Shown piece by piece: positions 29,701-48,909 of a DNA stretch of 64,000 nt. This stretch comes from Pomacea canaliculata. Lineage: Eukaryota > Mollusca > Gastropoda > Architaenioglossa > Ampullariidae. The first letter of the stretch is position 1. Each line of letters opens with the position of its first letter. A program made the position numbers and the translations under genes. The DNA lies in assembly GCF_003073045.1 (NCBI RefSeq), contig NC_037592.1, positions 2,577,371 to 2,641,370 on the forward strand. Reading direction: 5' to 3'. The notes beneath the pieces were generated by a model. The model was not told the origin of the DNA and did no database searches. It worked only from the letters and a program-made list of their open reading frames with translations.

Positions 29701-32700
29701 TCCTAAAAAAATTGTATTATCTCTTTAGCACCTCACAATGCTCATTGTTCAGATGTTCTGTTACCCACAAAATTCAATAATTTTTTTTTTTTTAAATCAC
29801 AAAAAGAACTAAAAGGGATATCAGACCAAAGTAAAAATTATAGCTTGAATGGTATAAGCTATTTCAATCTCATTCCTTCATGACAACAGCAGATTTTCTT
29901 AAATCTAGAAATCTAGAAGAAATCAGGCATCTCCAATGGTCTTAATTTTATTTTTGGACATGTAGTTATGCCAGAATGCACAATTTTTGTATGGTAACAG
30001 GTTTCATTATATTAAGTTTGAATCTAAGTATCAGTTTCAAATCTTGAACTATAGTTTTCCATGCATAAAGATTTGTTTGACTCTTTATATAGCTCTTACA
30101 GTTTCTTTATCTATGAAGAGTGGGTGAAAGACAGTCTTTTCATGGTGGAAAGTTGAAAGGGCATTATAAACCTGGGAGGCAATGAACTTTAGTAGTAGTA
30201 TAAAGGAATGGGGATTGTTGAAATGAATCTCTGCAGACGTGGAAAAAAAATAATTGAATTTGTAAAATGCATTTCCTTGTTTGGATGCAAGCTCAAAGCA
30301 AACCAAACAAAAATAAGCATCAGCAAAGGGATGAGACCATGGAAAACATGAACTAAGTGTGTTGATGAAGATGACAACGCTTAGGAATGAGGGGAAATAG
30401 TTTGTGCAAGATATTTTGTAAAGAGATGGCTTTTGAGAGATTTGAAAGCCTTGAACATAGACACAGTTCGGAGAGGAAGGTGCAGAAAGTTCCAGTTTGG
30501 TCTGAGAAAGAATATCTGCTGAATTTCTGTTGTCTCATGCATGGCAAAGAAAGGAGGATGGGTAACTTATGTATGACAAGCACCATAATACTTGATCTTG
30601 TTCCATTCTTTATCATTTACTCAACACACAGAATGCTAGACTTTCTTATTTTTATTTTCTCTAGGCCCTGCTGTTGACTGGTGGGCTATGGGAGTCTGTC
30701 TTTTTGAGTTTTTGACGGGACTTCCACCCTTCAATGATGAGACTCCAGAGCTAGTGTTTGCCAACATTCTCAACAGAGGTTTGTCTGCTTTCAGCACTCT
30801 TACTTTTAGAAATGGTGATTCTAAAAACATTTTGTTTGTTTGTTTTGTTTTGTTTTTTGGTTTTTTTTTACAGTTTTCACACAACGCATATTTTCATCTA
30901 CAGTTCATGTGATAGTGCATGCACACACACACACTTTCTCGCATGCAGGCAACACAAGGTGCATTCATGAGACACCCATGCAAACACCCCCACCCATACC
31001 TACCCACATACCCAAGGCACCCACCCAAGTACATGCATACACATACCACACTCACACAGAGACAGTGACTGAAATATATATGACCAATGTTTCATAATCC
31101 TGGGCTCCTAGTCAGGAACATTGGCCACATACCAATGATTAAATTTCCCTCATTTTGGTAAGAAACCAGCTGGTTAAGTTACCCCAATAGGCAAATTAAC
31201 TCCTGATTCAGAAGCCAAAGAGAAGGTGTTACCTAGCTAACAAGTGTAGCATAGAATTCCCAATGAAGGGTGTCGTTATGCAATCATTTTGGAATTAGAG
31301 GGAGAGGCATGAAACAACTAAAATGAAAAGGTGAAATGTATGCATTCGGATCAAATGGTTTTTCTTGAGCAAGTAATAGATGCCAAAGATACTAATTTTA
31401 TTTTTATTTAGAAACAAATGACAGATGAGAACAATATCTACTGAACAGTTCTGTACTATTATATCTGTCCAGCTTATTGGGTCTTAGAAAAATTCAGTAT
31501 TCACTTTGATGGAGCTATATTACCCTGGGTGGGAGTATTGGTTAAGTTTTACGCCATGCCAGCACTAAGACTATATCACTATTAGGTGGTGAAATTTTAT
31601 TAGAAGTGGGGTATCTGCAATAAAATACCCAGTAGTAAAATGATTTAGTGAAATTATACATGTATGAGTAACTTTTTAATTTGGATGATATTTAATTTCT
31701 GCACTGAGAATAAACATGAGCACGCTTAATAAGGGCCTGTTACTGCATTACATGTAGCAATTTCCTGGCCTAACTTCATGGACGCGCTGGGTGTGGAGGC
31801 GCAGGAAGCCATCAACCTGCTACTCACCATGGACCCTCAGCAAAGGCCAGGTGCTGCTGGTAGGTTTATGGGATGTTTGCATGAACACTATTAGGATAGA
31901 TTTCCATGAAAGGGCATGTCAAAGCCTTAATACATTCTCACAGAAAGATATGGAATAATAATAATGTAAACTTATAATGCACAACATCACAACCAAGATA
32001 GATCACTCTCTTGTGCATTTTATTTTTACTTTTTTATCTATAACCTAGCAACACCATGTTTTGTTACATTTTTTCTCAGAAGTTAAAGCAATGGCCTTTT
32101 TCTCCAACCTGGATTGGGACAGAATATTGGAAACAGAGCCTGCTTTTATTCCACAACCAGACAATGACATGGACACGTCATACTTTGACCGTAAGCTATG
32201 ATGGTTTTAGGAGTCACAATTGTTTTCATTTGTTCCCAATTAGTTATCTTAAAAATTTAGTAGTTTAATCAGTAGTATGGGGTTGGGTTAGGGCTTATTA
32301 ACTCTAACGACAGAGGAGCTAACACTCCTTTGGCAGGGATTCATGTATGTGGGTGGCAAAGGTTTTGGGGATATGAAGTGGATGCTGAGTTTGGGGGTGT
32401 GTGGGTGTATTTTGAACATTAAAATGTGCATTCCTATTGTGTATTACAGCAAAATGTGTATTACTATTGTGTGTTACAGCTAAAAACACATTGCAGCAAT
32501 TAAAAATATCTGCAGTTGATCTGTGATCCATCGCTTGGTTTAAATGCCACAAAACGAAAGGCATCTTTTCTAGTCATTTGCAAGAATGGTTTGTCACAAA
32601 CACAAACCTTCTAGTGTGTTTACTGAAAATGGAAAGAAGCACTGGGATTGCAGTCTGGTGAAGCAGCTGTGTTCCTGGGATTGCAAAGTCACTTCTTTTA

Positions 32701-35454
32701 GCATCAGGAGATGCTGGTCAGCTTTCAAAGAAGTTTATGTTAATACCTGGAGCATTATTTTTCAACACACTAAATTGTGAATTCTCAAAGATACCATTTC
32801 CATTTTGAAAAGAAAACTACATTTGAACATATTTTTTTTTTCATAACACTTACTTATTTTGGAGCCTTTCAAGATGAACTGTTTCTTGTTGTGCTTTTCT
32901 TTTTTGTTTTAAAGGGAATGATAATTTTGAATGAATATCTGGCACCTAGAGCACCAAGTATTGCTGAATGTTAGGTGAAATTTTTTTTGCACGAAAGTAC
33001 AAAGTAGAAAATACTTTGAAGTTAATGGTTTAGTTCTTTTCTTTGGATGTTTATGTTTATGTTCATGCCCTGTGCTTGTTTAGTTGCTATATGCAGTCCA
33101 ACAGATTTTATAATTTATCACTTTCTTTAAAATTTTGAATGTGAAAATGATACATTAGCTGGTGATAAAATGTTACGGCAGATCTTTATGACACTAAATG
33201 GTATAAAATCATTGTTGTTTTTTGTTAGTGATTAGGGGAAAAGATAATCATGAACTGTTTATATCAGATTGTAGGAGAACAAGTAAAGTCTTTTAGAGAG
33301 CCTTGTTTTTTTCATTAGTGATTATAGTAAAAGATAATCATAAAATGTTTATATCAGATTGTATGAGAACAAAAGTGTTTTAGAGAGATTGTCTTTTTCA
33401 GTAATCTTCATTATAGGAGAGTTTTGCCCTGCAATGATATTGGCTGTTGTATATTACTATTTAAAAAGTGTAACCAAGATGTACAGTTTAACATTTCTGA
33501 GGACTGTTTTAATGTATATACCTGCTGAACAGGTTGTAATCCAAAATAAATATTAAAAGTATTTTAGGCTTCACATATTTTCTTAGTCTTTTCTGTATGG
33601 AATATGTGAATGTATGCATAAATCCATTCCAAACAACATTCATCTGCTTCATCTTCTGCTTCTTGATAGACACCACTGACACGGTACATATACATATAGA
33701 GCTACTATCCAAAAGAGAACAGAATCGAAATCTATCTCTGCGTCTTTCTGACTGTGCAGTATTGTATTTATGCTGGACATACAGTAGAGAATAACTTTGT
33801 CAGCAGTTTCTCTTGTTGGAAGGAGGAAGCAGCAATCCAATACATGAAAGTGGAGGAGGGTCTGTCTTACCTGGAAGCTTGTTGTCCACTCAAACATCTG
33901 GTAACCCTTCTTTTGCAGGGGTGGTCTCTTGATGTCCCACGATGCCCATCTCCCGTCAAACTGACATTACATAAGTATCGTCGGAGACACAACCCCCACA
34001 CTCATGTCCCCCCTCCACTTAAGAAACACACACATCATGCCTAACCCCTCTCCCTCAGCCAACCCCAGCATACACATCCACAAAACCCTCAACACACACA
34101 CACTTAAATGCAATAATCTGATTCAAAAGTCTACATAAAAACACAAAAACCTCTCCCTCAACTTTAACCAACCCTCTGTGCTAAAAAAAAAACCTAGCTC
34201 CAAGGAGTGATGATCCCCACTAACTTTGCCCTCCCTTTCCTTAACTCAAATTACTTGGCACCACTTTCAGATGGTATGATGGATGTGGAGAAACGGCAGG
34301 TTCCTTCTCCCTCTACCTCATGTCACGCACTCACTACATCCTCTACACAATGCTCTGCATGTTCATCTCGTACATAGCTAATAATTGTCCAACTATCCGA
34401 TAAGGAACTGTTGAGGGATTCATGCAAATTTTGAAGAATAAGTGTCTATTGGATAAAGTGATTGCCCTCCAGGAAACCTTTTGACATGGCATACTTTCTT
34501 CTGTAAGGGTTTTCAAGGCTTCCAGAAGGCACCAGTGATTCCCATACTGGAATCCTTTTCAGTCCCATTGCCCTTACCATCTCATTACATTTTTAATGAT
34601 ATTGACTTATGTGTCATGAATGATGATAGTCCAATTTTTGTCAATCCCATAGCGTATCTACCACAGCAATTGATCTTTCAACATGTGATCCCACACTAAC
34701 AGTTGAATTAAACTGGCTCATGTGGGTTGATCTTTATGGGTGATCTGATCACTACCCCATCCTCCTCTCCTCAGTCTCAACCAGCACAGCCAAACACGGG
34801 GATCTTGTGCAGGTAGATTGGAGTACTTTCCAAACTTTCTGAGTCAATATCGGCTCCCACAAAAATCCTTCATCTCACCCTTGTACGAGGCTTCAAATAG
34901 TAAAGAGTCTATAACCTCAACAGGTCATCCAATGGAACCACAGACTAATATCAGTTAATAACTATATAATAATATATAATAACTATATATACAGTTTTTG
35001 TATTATCAATTTGTGCCTTATTTATGGTGTAGTGATAGCAAATTTACATATTTTGTGTTAGGAATGCTTCACAAGCTTAGGGTTTTGTTTATAAGTCTTG
35101 TATTTTTCACCCCTAACAAGCAGTTTGATAAAAATGTTCATGTTTTAAAATTTGCATATAAATAAGGCAAAGTGCTGTATCCTTATTTATGCAGCATGAC
35201 CATTATTTTTGTTAATGCCCTCAAAAGACTTGTTGGTATTATTAGTTTCTGGTTCTACTTGCTATGCTTCACTTTTATAAAGTATTTAAAATTGGCCAAT
35301 GGAAATTATGGTATGTTACACTGCTGGAGATTAAAGAGCTGGAAAGGCAAAGATACTGTATTTGGTTAAGGGGTGAGCCAGTCTTTAACATGATCAGTTA
35401 ACTGTTTTATTTTCAGGTTATGAAACAGAAAGCCTGTTAATGAAGTTGCACTAA
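20789..35454 (+). CDS. MASTL: Greatwall kinase (MASTL)
   Basis: Exons: 20789-20935, 21548-21603, 22131-22231, 22902-22993, 23315-23454, 23913-24000, 24373-24461, 24678-24898, 25015-26347, 26587-26770, 30665-30778, 31758-31859, 32080-32190, 35417-35454. Phases agree throughout except for one missing base near 23955, giving about 938 residues (human about 880). An AGC-type kinase domain starts near residue 56 (ISRGAFGKVF, AIKVMKK with Lys86, HRDLKPDN near 178-185, DFG near 198). The activation segment is split by about 600 poorly conserved residues, the Greatwall hallmark, and resumes as [12 protein letters not shown] near 800. [17 protein letters not shown] and PFIPQPD-like [15 protein letters not shown] follow. 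In animals the enzyme phosphorylates ENSA/ARPP19 to inhibit PP2A-B55 at mitotic entry. The last exon ([12 protein letters not shown], then stop) is inferred from splice phase and is less sure. Confidence 0.93.
22703..22799. repeat. Short inverted repeat in a MASTL intron
   Basis: TGATCAAAGAG at 22703-22713 and CTCTTTGATCA at 22789-22799 form perfect 11-bp arms around a 75-base loop. It may be a tiny MITE or a hairpin. No target duplication was identified. Confidence 0.5.
23913..24000 (+). other. MASTL: MASTL exon with a one-base frame break in the DFG region
   Basis: The exon reads [15 protein letters not shown] and then leaves the frame. One extra base in the run at 23,952-23,957 (gtcaccg) would restore [16 protein letters not shown], exactly what the family has there. 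Flanking exons are intact, so a sequence or assembly error is more likely than a null allele. Confidence 0.8.
25015..26347 (+). other. MASTL: Long MASTL insert exon
   Basis: A single 1,333-base exon encodes most of the non-conserved middle region between the two halves of the kinase lobe. It is Ser/Glu/Asp-rich, predicted disordered, and open from end to end. Human MASTL likewise has one large exon here. Several Ser-Pro and Thr-Pro dipeptides (for example [20 protein letters not shown]) suit the known CDK regulation of the family. Confidence 0.85.
26848..29597 (+). mobile_element. P/THAP-type DNA transposon relic
   Basis: The ends are inverted: ACTAATGGGTCGTTTTC at the left (about 26,848) and, read on the minus strand from the right end at 29,597, ACTAATAGGTCATTTTC. 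Both are followed a few bases later by ATGTGA. Inside, 27,312-27,396 encodes [12 protein letters not shown] and, one frame over, [16 protein letters not shown]. After an apparent GT-AG intron, 27,719-27,800 encodes [13 protein letters not shown]. Together these match the W, CSxH and WVPSL-type positions of a THAP zinc finger. The rest of a transposase is unreadable and no clean target duplication was seen. Confidence 0.45.
27025..27243. mobile_element. hAT MITE with perfect 8-bp target duplication
   Basis: Terminal inverted repeats CAGTGGTTCTTAACC and GGTTAAGAACCACTG bound a 219-bp element without coding capacity. The 8-bp duplication CACTAAAT flanks it at 27017-27024 and 27244-27251. It is inserted inside the THAP-type element, so it is younger. 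Confidence 0.92.
30917..31070. repeat. Degenerate CA-rich tract
   Basis: Impure (CA)n and ACCC repeats just after the exon ending at 30778. Confidence 0.8.
31530..31590 (-). repeat. SINE tail fragment
   Basis: GTTTTACGCCATGCCAGC and then ACTATATCAC match the left (3' tail) part of the SINEs at 41,497 and 49,860. Only the tail is present, which suggests a 5'-truncated insertion. No duplication was identified. Confidence 0.4.
33226..33400. repeat. Two-copy tandem duplication (about 90 bp)
   Basis: The segments beginning TTAGTGATTAGGGGAAAAGA (33226) and TTAGTGATTATAGTAAAAGA (about 33317) run in parallel through a shared stretch ATATCAGATTGTA and AGAACAA to TTTTAGAGAG. They lie in the last MASTL intron. 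Confidence 0.8.
34300..34950 (+). mobile_element. LINE endonuclease fragment
   Basis: The plus-strand pieces [10 protein letters not shown] (about 34,455) and [20 protein letters not shown] (about 34,745) are the ALQET and SDHYP landmarks of apurinic-type LINE endonucleases. Between them the frame is broken in several places. It lies in the last MASTL intron (32191-35416) in the sense orientation. Confidence 0.55.
35417..35454 (+). other. MASTL: Proposed terminal MASTL coding exon
   Basis: The acceptor attttcag at 35416 joins in phase to the donor at 32190 and gives DTSYFD, then [12 protein letters not shown] and a stop. A poly(A) signal follows within 260 bases. It does not resemble the vertebrate ending. 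Read-through of the donor at 32191 would instead stop after RKL. Confidence 0.5.
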
Positions 35455-35707: not shown

Positions 35708-36725
35708 AAAGTTTTTCTTAAAGAAAAATGGTGTTTCTTTTTCCTTTTATACTGTGATGCTAAGAATAAGAAACTGAATGGCTTATGTTGCAGGGGGTCT
35801 CGTCTCATTTCTAATCAGAATTTGCATGATTCCTGCATAGTTGACACTCCTACTGATTTGCATGCTTAGTCGAAGCAAATGATCCTTATTGCCGTTGTTT
35901 GGAAAGCTGCTTTAACTATTGACATGGTTGTTAGAGCTGAAAAGTCCCCTTGTACATTCACCTGGCTTGGCCTGCCTACAGCTGGCAATGAACTAAAAAA
36001 AAAATACACAGTAGGCTTGAGTTCCAACATATTTATCAACAAAAAAGAAAACCTTAAGAATTATGCCAGTAACAGAGGCACTGTGGGAAGAAAAACAATC
36101 CTTTTCTGCATAATCATGCCACATGCTGGGCTCAGGAGAACCACGTGAGCTAGGCACCAAACGAGCCTTTTTAGGTTCTTGTATTGCAGTCCTTAGTTGT
36201 GATGAAATGTAGGGGAGCTGGAAGATGCACAAGTTGCATTATCAAAAACTCTTGTCAGTGCAAGACTTTTTTTCGGACTGTGCTGAAGATGACCAGGACT
36301 AAAATGTGGCATGACAGCGTACTCACGCTTCTCGTTTTGCCTTTGCTCGCACTGGATCAAAAGTACTGAAATAGTAATAGAAAATAAATAATCAACATGC
36401 AAAAGAGTATATACTTACTAGCACACTATGGTTACAAGTTTTACTGTTATCATTATCGTAAATACCAAGGGTTGCTAAAAGTATCGCCCCATTCCTAGGT
36501 TACCCCCCTTGACTGAGACCTTCAGTGGTTCAGACCGCGGACCCTACACATAAAAACTAAAAAGGAAGTGCACACTGCTACTTCTATGCTGCTATATTCT
36601 ACTTGTTTTATAACCCATAACAAATTATCTGAGTAGTCATTCATCTACCTAACCAACCCACAGACCATGTAACAACCCCAGACAACCATAATCTTTGCAA
36701 ATGATTATGCACAATTGGAACTTAC

Positions 36726-37006
36726 ATTGTACTTAGTATTTTATACATAGTATTTTAACACTCTATGATATAAAACATTTAAATATATATTCAAAACAAA
36801 TATTTTACTCATTGGAGTAGGTGTCCCACCTTGAGGAGGCGTTCTGCTCTCCACAAATCTTCTAATGTGGTCATGCAGTTCGAAGTAAAGGGACATGAAG
36901 TCCTGGTCCGACAGCTCACTTGTCATGTATTTAAAATAACTATTAAGTGATTCATACGCAAACACTCTGCTACTGGTGGTCCTGAATTCTGTACTAATTC
37001 GATATG
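36726..37006 (-). CDS. Duplicated exon, copy 1, of an unrecognised minus-strand gene
   Basis: On the minus strand the acceptor CTTTTTTTTTCAG opens the exon and the donor GTAAGTTCC closes it after an in-frame stop. It reads YRISTEFRTTSSRVFAYES, then FKYMTSELSDQDFMSLYFE and HDHIRRFVESRTPPQGG, about 88 residues in all. It is paralogous to copy 2 at 37,773-37,951 with about 40% residue identity. No catalytic motif, signal peptide or membrane span is visible. The family is unknown to me, and no start codon was assigned inside the exon. It may be an internal or terminal exon of a small gene whose first exon could be the ORF at 38,548. Confidence 0.45.
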
Positions 37007-37371
37007 CTGAAAAAAAAAGATGCAAAAAGACTTAATAATTTATGTCATCCATACAGGCATTCTGAAAACTTCCGTCACTCACTCCCTTTTGTCTGTTTTT
37101 TAAAAAAAATCATTTTCTCGCTCTAGCTATAAACTTTTTTTAAATTATAAAATGATAAAGAAAAAAATTCCCCCCATCGTCCCATATATAATGCCTTATC
37201 CAACTTGGCTAAGTGGCGCGAACATCAAACAACTGCCACAAACAAACCAGGGTTTCTGCTTACGCAAAATATTGCGTACAGTACGCATTAAAAGTTCGGA
37301 GGACCCCTTCAATTTTCGTCAATGGGATCCCAGGGACCCCAGTAAGTGTAGTGTCTGACATCTTTAGTCAG

Positions 37372-37738
37372 TTAGTTAGGCCCTTCGCCCCTCCTGGTGC
37401 ATAGGCTATCAACGACAGTCCTCCAACGCCTCCTGTCCTGGGCTACTGTCACCAGTTGCCCCCATCCGAGTCCGGTGAGCTTGGTGTCGGCGGCGAGGTC
37501 CCATCTCCAGGTGTTTCTCGGCCTTCCTCGCTTTCTCTTTCCCTGAGGGTTCCATGTCAGCGACTGTCTCGTGACGTTGGATGCTGGCTTCCATAGGGTG
37601 TGCCCTAGCACACCCCATCGTCTCCGCAGGATTTCTTCCTCCATAGGCTGCTGTTTTGTTCTCTGCCACAGGTCAGTGTTGCGTATTTTCTCTGGCCAGT
37701 GAATTCTGAGGATTCTATGCAGGCACTGGTTCACATAA
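37372..37738 (-). mobile_element. LINE reverse-transcriptase tail
   Basis: The minus-strand reading is VNQCLHRILRIHWPEKI, then RRRWGVLGHTLWKP, GKRKRGRPRNTWRWDL and AQDRRRWRTVVDSLC. This is the conserved C-terminal tail of a LINE polymerase that is very abundant in marine invertebrate genomes. It is open over about 120 residues, so it is fairly young, but severely 5'-truncated. It is inserted beside exon copy 2. Confidence 0.85.
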
Positions 37739-37772
37739 TCTTTGCAAATGATTAGGCACAATTGGAACTTAC

Positions 37773-37951
37773 TTCAATTTATTGATATTGAGCCTCCTTT
37801 TCCTCCACATATCGCTTGATATGATCATGAAAAAGAATATCGAAGTCATCCTCCTTTAATTTGTTTGTTGTAAACATGAAGAAATGTGTTAACGCTTCTG
37901 CTGCTAACCATCTAGAATTTGAGGTCCTAATCTCTCTTGAAAGTCGAAAGA
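37773..37951 (-). CDS. Duplicated exon, copy 2, of an unrecognised minus-strand gene
   Basis: The acceptor (TTTTTTATTTTTTCAG) and donor (GTAAGTTCC) match copy 1. It reads FRLSREIRTSNSRWLAAEAL, then FFMFTTNKLKEDDFDILF and HDHIKRYVEEKEAQYQ, then a stop (37,779-37,781), with the donor six bases later. Shared positions with copy 1 include RT-SR, A-E-L, DF and HDHI-R-VE. About 60 bases upstream and 38 bases downstream are almost identical to copy 1 although the exons differ. Confidence 0.45.
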
Positions 37952-38272
37952 CTGAAAAAATAAAAAAGATGCAAAAAGACTTCATAATTTATGTCATCAA
38001 TACAGGCATTCTGAAAATTTCCGTTCTCTTCGCCGTCTCCTTGTTATGCATGCCTATTCTGAAAAAAAAAAAGAGAAAAAAGTCATTTCAAAATTATAAA
38101 ACATTAGATCTGAAACATTTAAGAATTTTTTCTCCCTCCAAGGTCATTTTGAAATCCATAATGTCATAGCTAATTAAAGATTTTGTCATTTTATTTTGAA
38201 CTTGTCAAAAACATATTAACATCTTTGGGTTTTCTCTCCAGTTTTACTCCAAAGTGAAAATAAAATCCAGAA

Positions 38273-38548
38273 CTATTTTCTACAGATCTGATGTTTAACT
38301 TTTGGGGAGTTTGTTGAAGAATGAAAAGAGCGTGATCCTGATGCTAGATGGAATGTGTTGAAACTGTCAAGCATAACAGTCCATTGATTTTTTTTTCTTA
38401 AAACACTTTCGCCCATAGACGAAAGATTCAAGGATATTCCGCAGGCAGCACATCGCGCACAATGTTTATCTTTAGAGTCTTTCATCAACCAGTCTTTATA
38501 TTTTAATTCCTTTAGCCAGTTCTCCTGAAAGGAACACTTCCCCGGCAT
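38273..38548 (-). CDS. Small ORF with a C-x2-C finger of transposon (hAT/BED-like) type
   Basis: The 91-residue ORF starts MPGKCSFQENWLKELKYKDW and continues KHCARCAACGISLNLSSMGE. The W-L and C-x2-C-x(n)-MG pattern is that of N-terminal fingers on hAT-like transposases and their domesticated relatives. The distal His pair is not evident. It could be a transposon remnant or the first exon of the locus carrying the duplicated exons at 36,726 and 37,773. Confidence 0.4.
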   Translation of the reverse strand: MPGKCSFQENWLKELKYKDWLMKDSKDKHCARCAACGISLNLSSMGESVLRKKNQWTVMLDSFNTFHLASGSRSFHSSTNSPKVKHQICRK

Positions 38549-38800
38549 TTTTTTTTTTTAATCGTCAAGAAATGTGGTCTTCCGTCAAGACTAAAATCTC
38601 GCGAAACATAAGTTCTCGTCGCGAACGAGACTTGGCAGTCGTACGCGTAGATCTGTAGGGACAGATCTCAGGTGTGATTAAAATAGCGATGAGGCAAAAT
38701 TGTCTGTATTCTACGCCAAAGTCGACTCCGAAAATAAATTTGTGGATTTATAAAAGGCATGAAAAACAAATCTGTGGTAATATTTTATCGATATAAGGAC

Positions 38801-38924
38801 TTGTAAGGGTCACAGAGAAACGTAAGGACCTGTGTGAGGAATTGTAAGGACCGCATGGCAAATATAAGGACTCATAAGGCCTTACGGCGAAAATTCTCTA
38901 CGTAAGGACTTGCAAGGACCCTAC
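38801..38924. repeat. Degenerate TAAGGAC repeat
   Basis: TAAGGAC or a one-base variant (TAAGGGT, TAAGGCC, CAAGGAC) recurs about eight times at 10-25-base spacing. The surrounding sequence is irregular. Confidence 0.6.
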
Positions 38925-39446
38925 GAACCTGTAAAATATAAATAAATACCTTTATCAACTGCAGTGATGGTGAATTTGTTGAGCACGATGACTGTCTACG
39001 ACGTTTTTTAGGTGTTAGATGAGCTGATTTCAGCACCAGCAAATTAACTAATCTTACTGTCTCTTAAACAAGACCGGAAAAGAAAGTAGCAATTTCCACC
39101 GAGAGTTATCTTCTCCACAGAGAAGTCGCCCACGAACTAATAAATACACGTTCATGAATGGAACATTTCTTCTTGTCACAAGTTACTACAAGTTACTACA
39201 GTTTCCTTTTGAATTTTTATTAATGTTAGTTTGCGGTAAGGACAACAATACATGCATACCAATATATGTCGTCGTATTCGTGAAGTATTTTATAAATATC
39301 TTAATAAGGTCTTCCCTGATTCTCATTTCTTTCAGAAAGTGGAGTCTTGAGTTCTTTCATATTCCTTCGTTTTACTAGCACTTTAATATCACGTCTTTGT
39401 ACGCTTTCCACTAACGTCTGATCACATCAGAGTTGTTGAACGTTGC

Positions 39447-40051: not shown

Positions 40052-48909
<8,858 letters not shown>

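Follow-up and report, generated by a model that had tools for sequence, protein, structure and literature searches.

A pair of tandem coding exons in the genome of Pomacea canaliculata carries exon bodies that are saturated with synonymous differences between flanks that are nearly identical, and relatives of the pair elsewhere in the genome repeat this pattern. We consider it probable, judging by the sequence, that recombination between copies has decoupled the exon histories from the intron histories, through homogenisation of introns, exchange of exon segments, or both. The window, i.e. the whole stretch of DNA analysed here, spans 64,000 nucleotides (C3:2577371-2641370) and was compared with a genome of 440 Mb in 24 contigs.

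Both exon copies lie on the minus strand. Copy 1 (W1, 37773-37951) is a terminal coding exon of 57 residues followed by a stop, with an open reading frame, splice-like borders and relatives elsewhere; copy 2 (W2, 36726-37006) is likewise a terminal coding exon, brought to its 281 nt by a dispersed repeat (about 86 nt; 36747-36832, minus strand) that occurs with 94% identity at seven other places. Upstream of each copy the end of the intron forms a box (37959-38024 for W1 and 37010-37075 for W2, minus strand) in which 4 of 66 bases differ, and which recurs at other family loci. The downstream boxes (37734-37772 for W1 and 36687-36725 for W2, minus strand), starting GTAAGTTCC, differ at 1 of 39 bases; that of W1 is truncated by the repeat at 37370-37735, and for W2 the likeness runs on to about 36367 in a duplicate on contig C10 (L038). 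A possible next exon (36307-36366, minus strand) follows a candidate acceptor at 36367, with 4/59 differences from L038. The translations of the two exons are 42% identical over 55 aligned codons, and Nei-Gojobori counts give a pS of 0.76 and a pN of 0.39 for the exon bodies. The original prediction, which had placed the exons at these positions with about 40% shared residues, about 3 differences in some 57 intron bases upstream (62 of 66 match) and 1 in 38 bases downstream (38 of 39 match), is borne out on all these points. It had also described both exons as splice-bounded with a GTAAGTTCC donor. The borders are indeed splice-like, but the stop codon of W1 lies in frame a few bases 5' of GTAAGTTCC and that of W2 precedes the end of the inserted repeat, so both are read as 3'-terminal coding exons, and a putative splice at GTAAGTTCC would fall within the 3' UTR. 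The boxes recur together with related exon bodies at other genome loci, which indicates that the pattern of W1 and W2 is not due to chance. At one of these, L029b (C3:4.603 Mb), the codons are the same as in W1 except for a 9-nt gap (dS 0, 48 codons), and W1 appears to be its recent relative.

The evidence supports W1 and W2 as 3'-terminal exons of a multi-copy family of predicted small-exon genes. Further copies, for which the original prediction had proposed a search, exist, with related modules and boxes at many other loci. Terminal-exon modules were found on C3, C4, C8, C9 and C10 among the loci read, mostly on C3, and the downstream box occurs also on C11 and C12; these counts cover the best-scored places only and are thus lower bounds, and L043 at C3:0.07 Mb matches weakly. 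The terminal exon is preceded by short basic (A) and acidic (B) exons, and two arrays have close by a zinc-finger-like ORF resembling that at 38548 of the window. The lengths of nine distinct exons B (34, 52, 58 or 79 nt) all leave a remainder of 1 on division by 3, and 9/9 can be read through in the same frame; for the three exons A compared the remainder is always 2, and several family exons have only 14-52 nt. These frame-keeping lengths of A and B support real coding exons, and frame consistency together with conserved splice sites supports a unit that would begin with a putative zinc-finger-like first exon, continue with short exons that are basic and acidic by turns, and end in a terminal exon of two helices.

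Copies evidently multiply in tandem and by segmental duplication. At least six upstream boxes are spaced about 2.77 kb apart at C3:4.603-4.617 Mb, and at least four are spaced about 1.28 kb apart at C3:1.918-1.922 Mb. The corresponding gene units, of about 2.77 kb in L029-L030 (C3:4603375-4617300) and about 1.28 kb in L036 (C3:1918138-1922047), are nearly identical tandem copies. A different kind of tandem array occupies L034:3959-9891 (C3:4652459-4658391), where a unit of about 112 bp, which combines the acceptor with the initial 97 nt of the terminal exon, gives 35 exon-like matches.

The clearest separation of exon and intron divergence is found in a trio of loci on C3 (L036, L030 and L035, at about 1.919, 4.617 and 4.658 Mb). 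Their three whole introns, pooled, differ at 9/467, 15/475 and 17/475 positions (1.9-3.6%), while the codons in exon B and at the beginning of the terminal exon give a pS of 0.72 in 3/3 pairs and a pN of 0.20-0.35, with synonymous counts resting on about 32 sites per pair. In the alignment the change is confined between AG and GT, starting and ending at splice sites. Beyond the 3' end of the terminal exon, the L030 and L036 units have no alignable sequence. Intron likeness does not track the distance between loci: L030 and L036, 2.7 Mb apart, account for the 9/467, and L030 and L035, about 41 kb apart, for 15/475, while the intron before exon B shows 27-29 differences in about 192 positions (14-15%) between L036 and L037, which lie about 0.15 Mb from each other. 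This argues against simple local homogenisation. The same intron differs by 3-4% between L035 and L036 and by 8-15% against the older members L037 and L043. When the nine distinct exons B were compared with their introns, the exon was the more divergent in 36/36 pairs (medians 0.52 and 0.128), a result biased by recruitment through the flank pattern, fixed-length cuts, one near-identical pair and arbitrary distances from unlike lengths, and for which a second aligner gave lower exon values. It agrees with the trio, and our conclusions rest on the whole introns of the trio instead. One further comparison with fixed-length cuts overstated intron divergence.

Duplicates with mismatched exons add to this picture. 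Between W2 and L038 the flanks differ at 5/89 and 8/353 positions and the terminal exon body at 73/170, and the matching sequence on the 5' side extends for only about 110 nt. L038 (C10:33000-42000, near the end of C10) also holds a rearranged partial duplicate of a greatwall-like kinase gene located at 30001-33247 of the window, whose best PDB match is greatwall kinase. The pieces diverge by 4-10% from the window, with one block falling from 10.5% to 5.4% under another aligner, and this gene served as a control: within the duplicate it had no exon excess (10/168 in ORF parts versus 10/201 in the rest). Elsewhere, no difference separates L029a from L030a across 527 bases upstream and 19 codons of the exon, beyond which pS is 0.69 and pN 0.16, and L039 and L041 differ at 0/90 positions in the first module, 16/275 in the intron and 69/185 in the second exon. 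An exon segment of another lineage between orthologous flanks would fit W2 and L038, with a short 5' match; the two other cases are one-sided, the downstream sequence differing too, and each may reflect a single breakpoint. Taken together, the three cases show copies assembled from parts of unequal age.

Conserved introns next to divergent exons are often taken as a sign of positive selection, and the leading idea of the original prediction was an arms race, in which young copies are pushed to amino-acid change. The introns are less divergent than the exons, as in an arms-race family, but dN does not exceed dS between recent copies. Wherever dS is finite and nonzero, dN/dS between W1 or W2 and their relatives is 0.13-0.56, dS being saturated or zero in the remaining pairs, which give no ratio; the comparison of dN/dS that the prediction had proposed thus falls below 1, and in the trio pS likewise exceeds pN. 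Selection on amino acids would leave synonymous sites about as divergent as the introns (about 5%), and since they are saturated instead, an arms race is unsupported. Positive selection by point substitution alone is ruled out, and we give an arms race, refuted as the sole cause, hardly any credence. The ordinary accelerated pattern is represented by snake small serum protein genes, for which the part of the report available gives KA/KS values of 1.739 and 1.536 in gene pairs with intron divergences of 0.065 and 0.049 (PMC6609765), and the present family is unlike them. Its exons are old and, as protein, under constraint, and it is the flanks that are unusual.

The original prediction had offered conversion or exchange involving the flanks as its alternative, and this part of its interpretation fits best: the flanks differ at 4/66 and 1/39 positions next to a pS of 0.76. 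In the recombination that we favour, exon lineages would be old and held by purifying selection, and the adjoining introns would share recent ancestry, the split between the two histories arising from exchange between copies. Either introns would be homogenised while exon differences are retained, or exon segments of divergent copies would be swapped in through the alike flanks. The window pair, the C3 trio, W2 with L038, the greatwall-like control and the mosaic copies all count toward such recombination; against it, exchange tracts would need to end at exons of only 14-52 nt, two of the mosaic cases are one-sided, and the 5' match of W2 and L038 is short. Exons might also be rewritten from old sister sequences via an intronless template (spliced RNA or cDNA), by which coding segments would be replaced up to the splice sites and the introns left untouched, with the exon-fragment array at C3:4.652-4.658 Mb as a possible further donor pool, but we regard this route as very unlikely. 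A targeted process that mutates exons faster than introns would suit the confinement of change in the trio between splice sites. We know of no machinery of this kind, and for pN to lie so far below pS, purifying selection must have acted for a long time, a poor fit with introns only 2-4% apart, which makes such a process improbable.

It is somewhat less unlikely, though still doubtful, that the copies are simply old and their introns strongly constrained, for example by signals for recognising very small exons. Several exons do have only 14-52 nt, intron divergence grows with the distance of the member (3-4% for L035-L036, 11-15% for L037 and L043), and L030 and L036 cannot be aligned past the terminal exon, as would be the case if the copies are old. 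Yet an identity of about 97% across roughly 470 bases of intron far exceeds the needs of splice signals, and the introns of W2 and L038 match to the level of the recent duplication and not beyond it. Additionally, three stretches folded from the boxes gave z values of 0.12, 0.92 and -1.10, i.e. no signal, and the single Rfam match over 35900-39400 scored below the gathering score and lay outside the exon pair and flanks. The original prediction had itself considered that the alike flanks might be a dispersed repeat that landed twice, here next to two unrelated exons. This holds in part for the downstream box, which belongs to sequence also dispersed at L019-L022 and L046, where no terminal exon was found below E 0.07. 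It does not hold for the upstream box, whose matches on C3, C4, C9 and C10 nearly all adjoin family exons, with L045 as the exception. Since the upstream box and whole introns stand at the same exon borders in many members and the exon bodies are homologous, there is very little to be said for two chance landings, and recombination between copies remains our preferred explanation.

The closest known pattern is the switching of exon segments in snake three-finger toxins. In viperid three-finger toxin genes, introns are more than 85% alike and exon segments have been exchanged for very different ones (accelerated segment switch in exons, ASSET; PMC2474615), and the portion of that report available calls the mechanism unknown, leaving the cause of this similar pattern open. 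As there, introns in the present family are alike between copies, exon segments look exchanged, and exon order and scaffold are kept; unlike there, as far as that portion goes, the present exons can be recognised as old homologues and their synonymous sites are saturated, whole small exons are changed, and the protein is predicted to be helical and not a cysteine-rich toxin. Conotoxin gene superfamilies also combine introns conserved within a superfamily with one highly variable exon, for which the accessible part of the source lists point mutations, indels and sites under positive selection (PMC3862624), whereas in the present family it is the synonymous sites that carry the excess, with dN/dS below 1. 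Divergence islands in Tigriopus GOT1 resemble the present case in that strongly and weakly diverged stretches of paralogues form a mosaic, ascribed in the available text to conversion (PMC3728101), but the low-divergence stretches here consist of several introns interspersed with several exons. Aphid bicycle genes, likened by description only, have fast-changing coding sequence in a better conserved gene structure, and the part of the account available does not mention near-identical introns (PMC9168663). In the present family, synonymous sites show that positive selection cannot fully explain conserved introns beside divergent exons. With three short introns alternating with three exons in one alignment, homogenisation, swapping and constraint become separable through related species.

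The terminal module is also without a relative in Pfam or PDB. The original prediction recognised no family in it, which held in Pfam, in PDB and in a protein database that is seemingly poor in animal proteins. Pfam gave no match to W1 or W2 at E up to 1, and of five terminal-exon relatives three had none and two were far below cut-off; the best PDB sequence (E 0.038) was not credible, and a terminal-exon profile found nothing at E 0.01 in the protein database. A literature search returned nothing that names the family. Structure prediction gives the exon a two-helix hairpin (mean pLDDT 85, pTM 0.58), and Foldseek found no match to this model. A cysteine-rich three-finger toxin fold is at odds with the helical model and with the scarcity of cysteines, which are absent from 8/11 aligned modules and number 1, 1 and 2 in the other three. 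A resemblance of the exon to the BESS motif was considered, but has no support from Pfam. The zinc-finger-like start of the genes leads us to guess that the protein is nuclear.

A zinc-finger-like ORF at 38276-38548 (minus strand) is likely the first exon of a family gene, and incomplete. A database protein, P0001, matched with 86% identity over 37% of a composite query; the second half of the motif present in P0001 is missing from the window ORF. A link of the ORF to the terminal exons is plausible, since both L031 and L035 have partial relatives of it upstream of this type of exon. The upstream box of W1 directly abuts exon-A-like sequence with no exon B between them, as judged by eye, and repeats interrupt or adjoin both window copies. 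Given the missing exon B, the shortened ORF and these repeats, the window exon pair is probably a decayed remnant.

Of 423 candidates for the repeat between the copies (37370-37735, minus strand), 40 were scored, and 39 of these are further copies at 90-97%; the repeat has no Pfam match, and may be a 3' fragment of a reverse transcriptase. Short stretches of 37248-37331 match C13 and L031 at about 95%, which indicates that there is more than one repeat in the spacer. L040, L041 and L042 (C9, C9 and C4) contain repeats of about 2.15 kb that are about 95% alike and carry two terminal-exon modules. Their left end resembles a hAT terminus; when they were considered as a transposon, no clear paired ends or target duplication were found. 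Finally, leucine-rich-repeat exons on the plus strand (42989-44623) adjoin the locus in the window.
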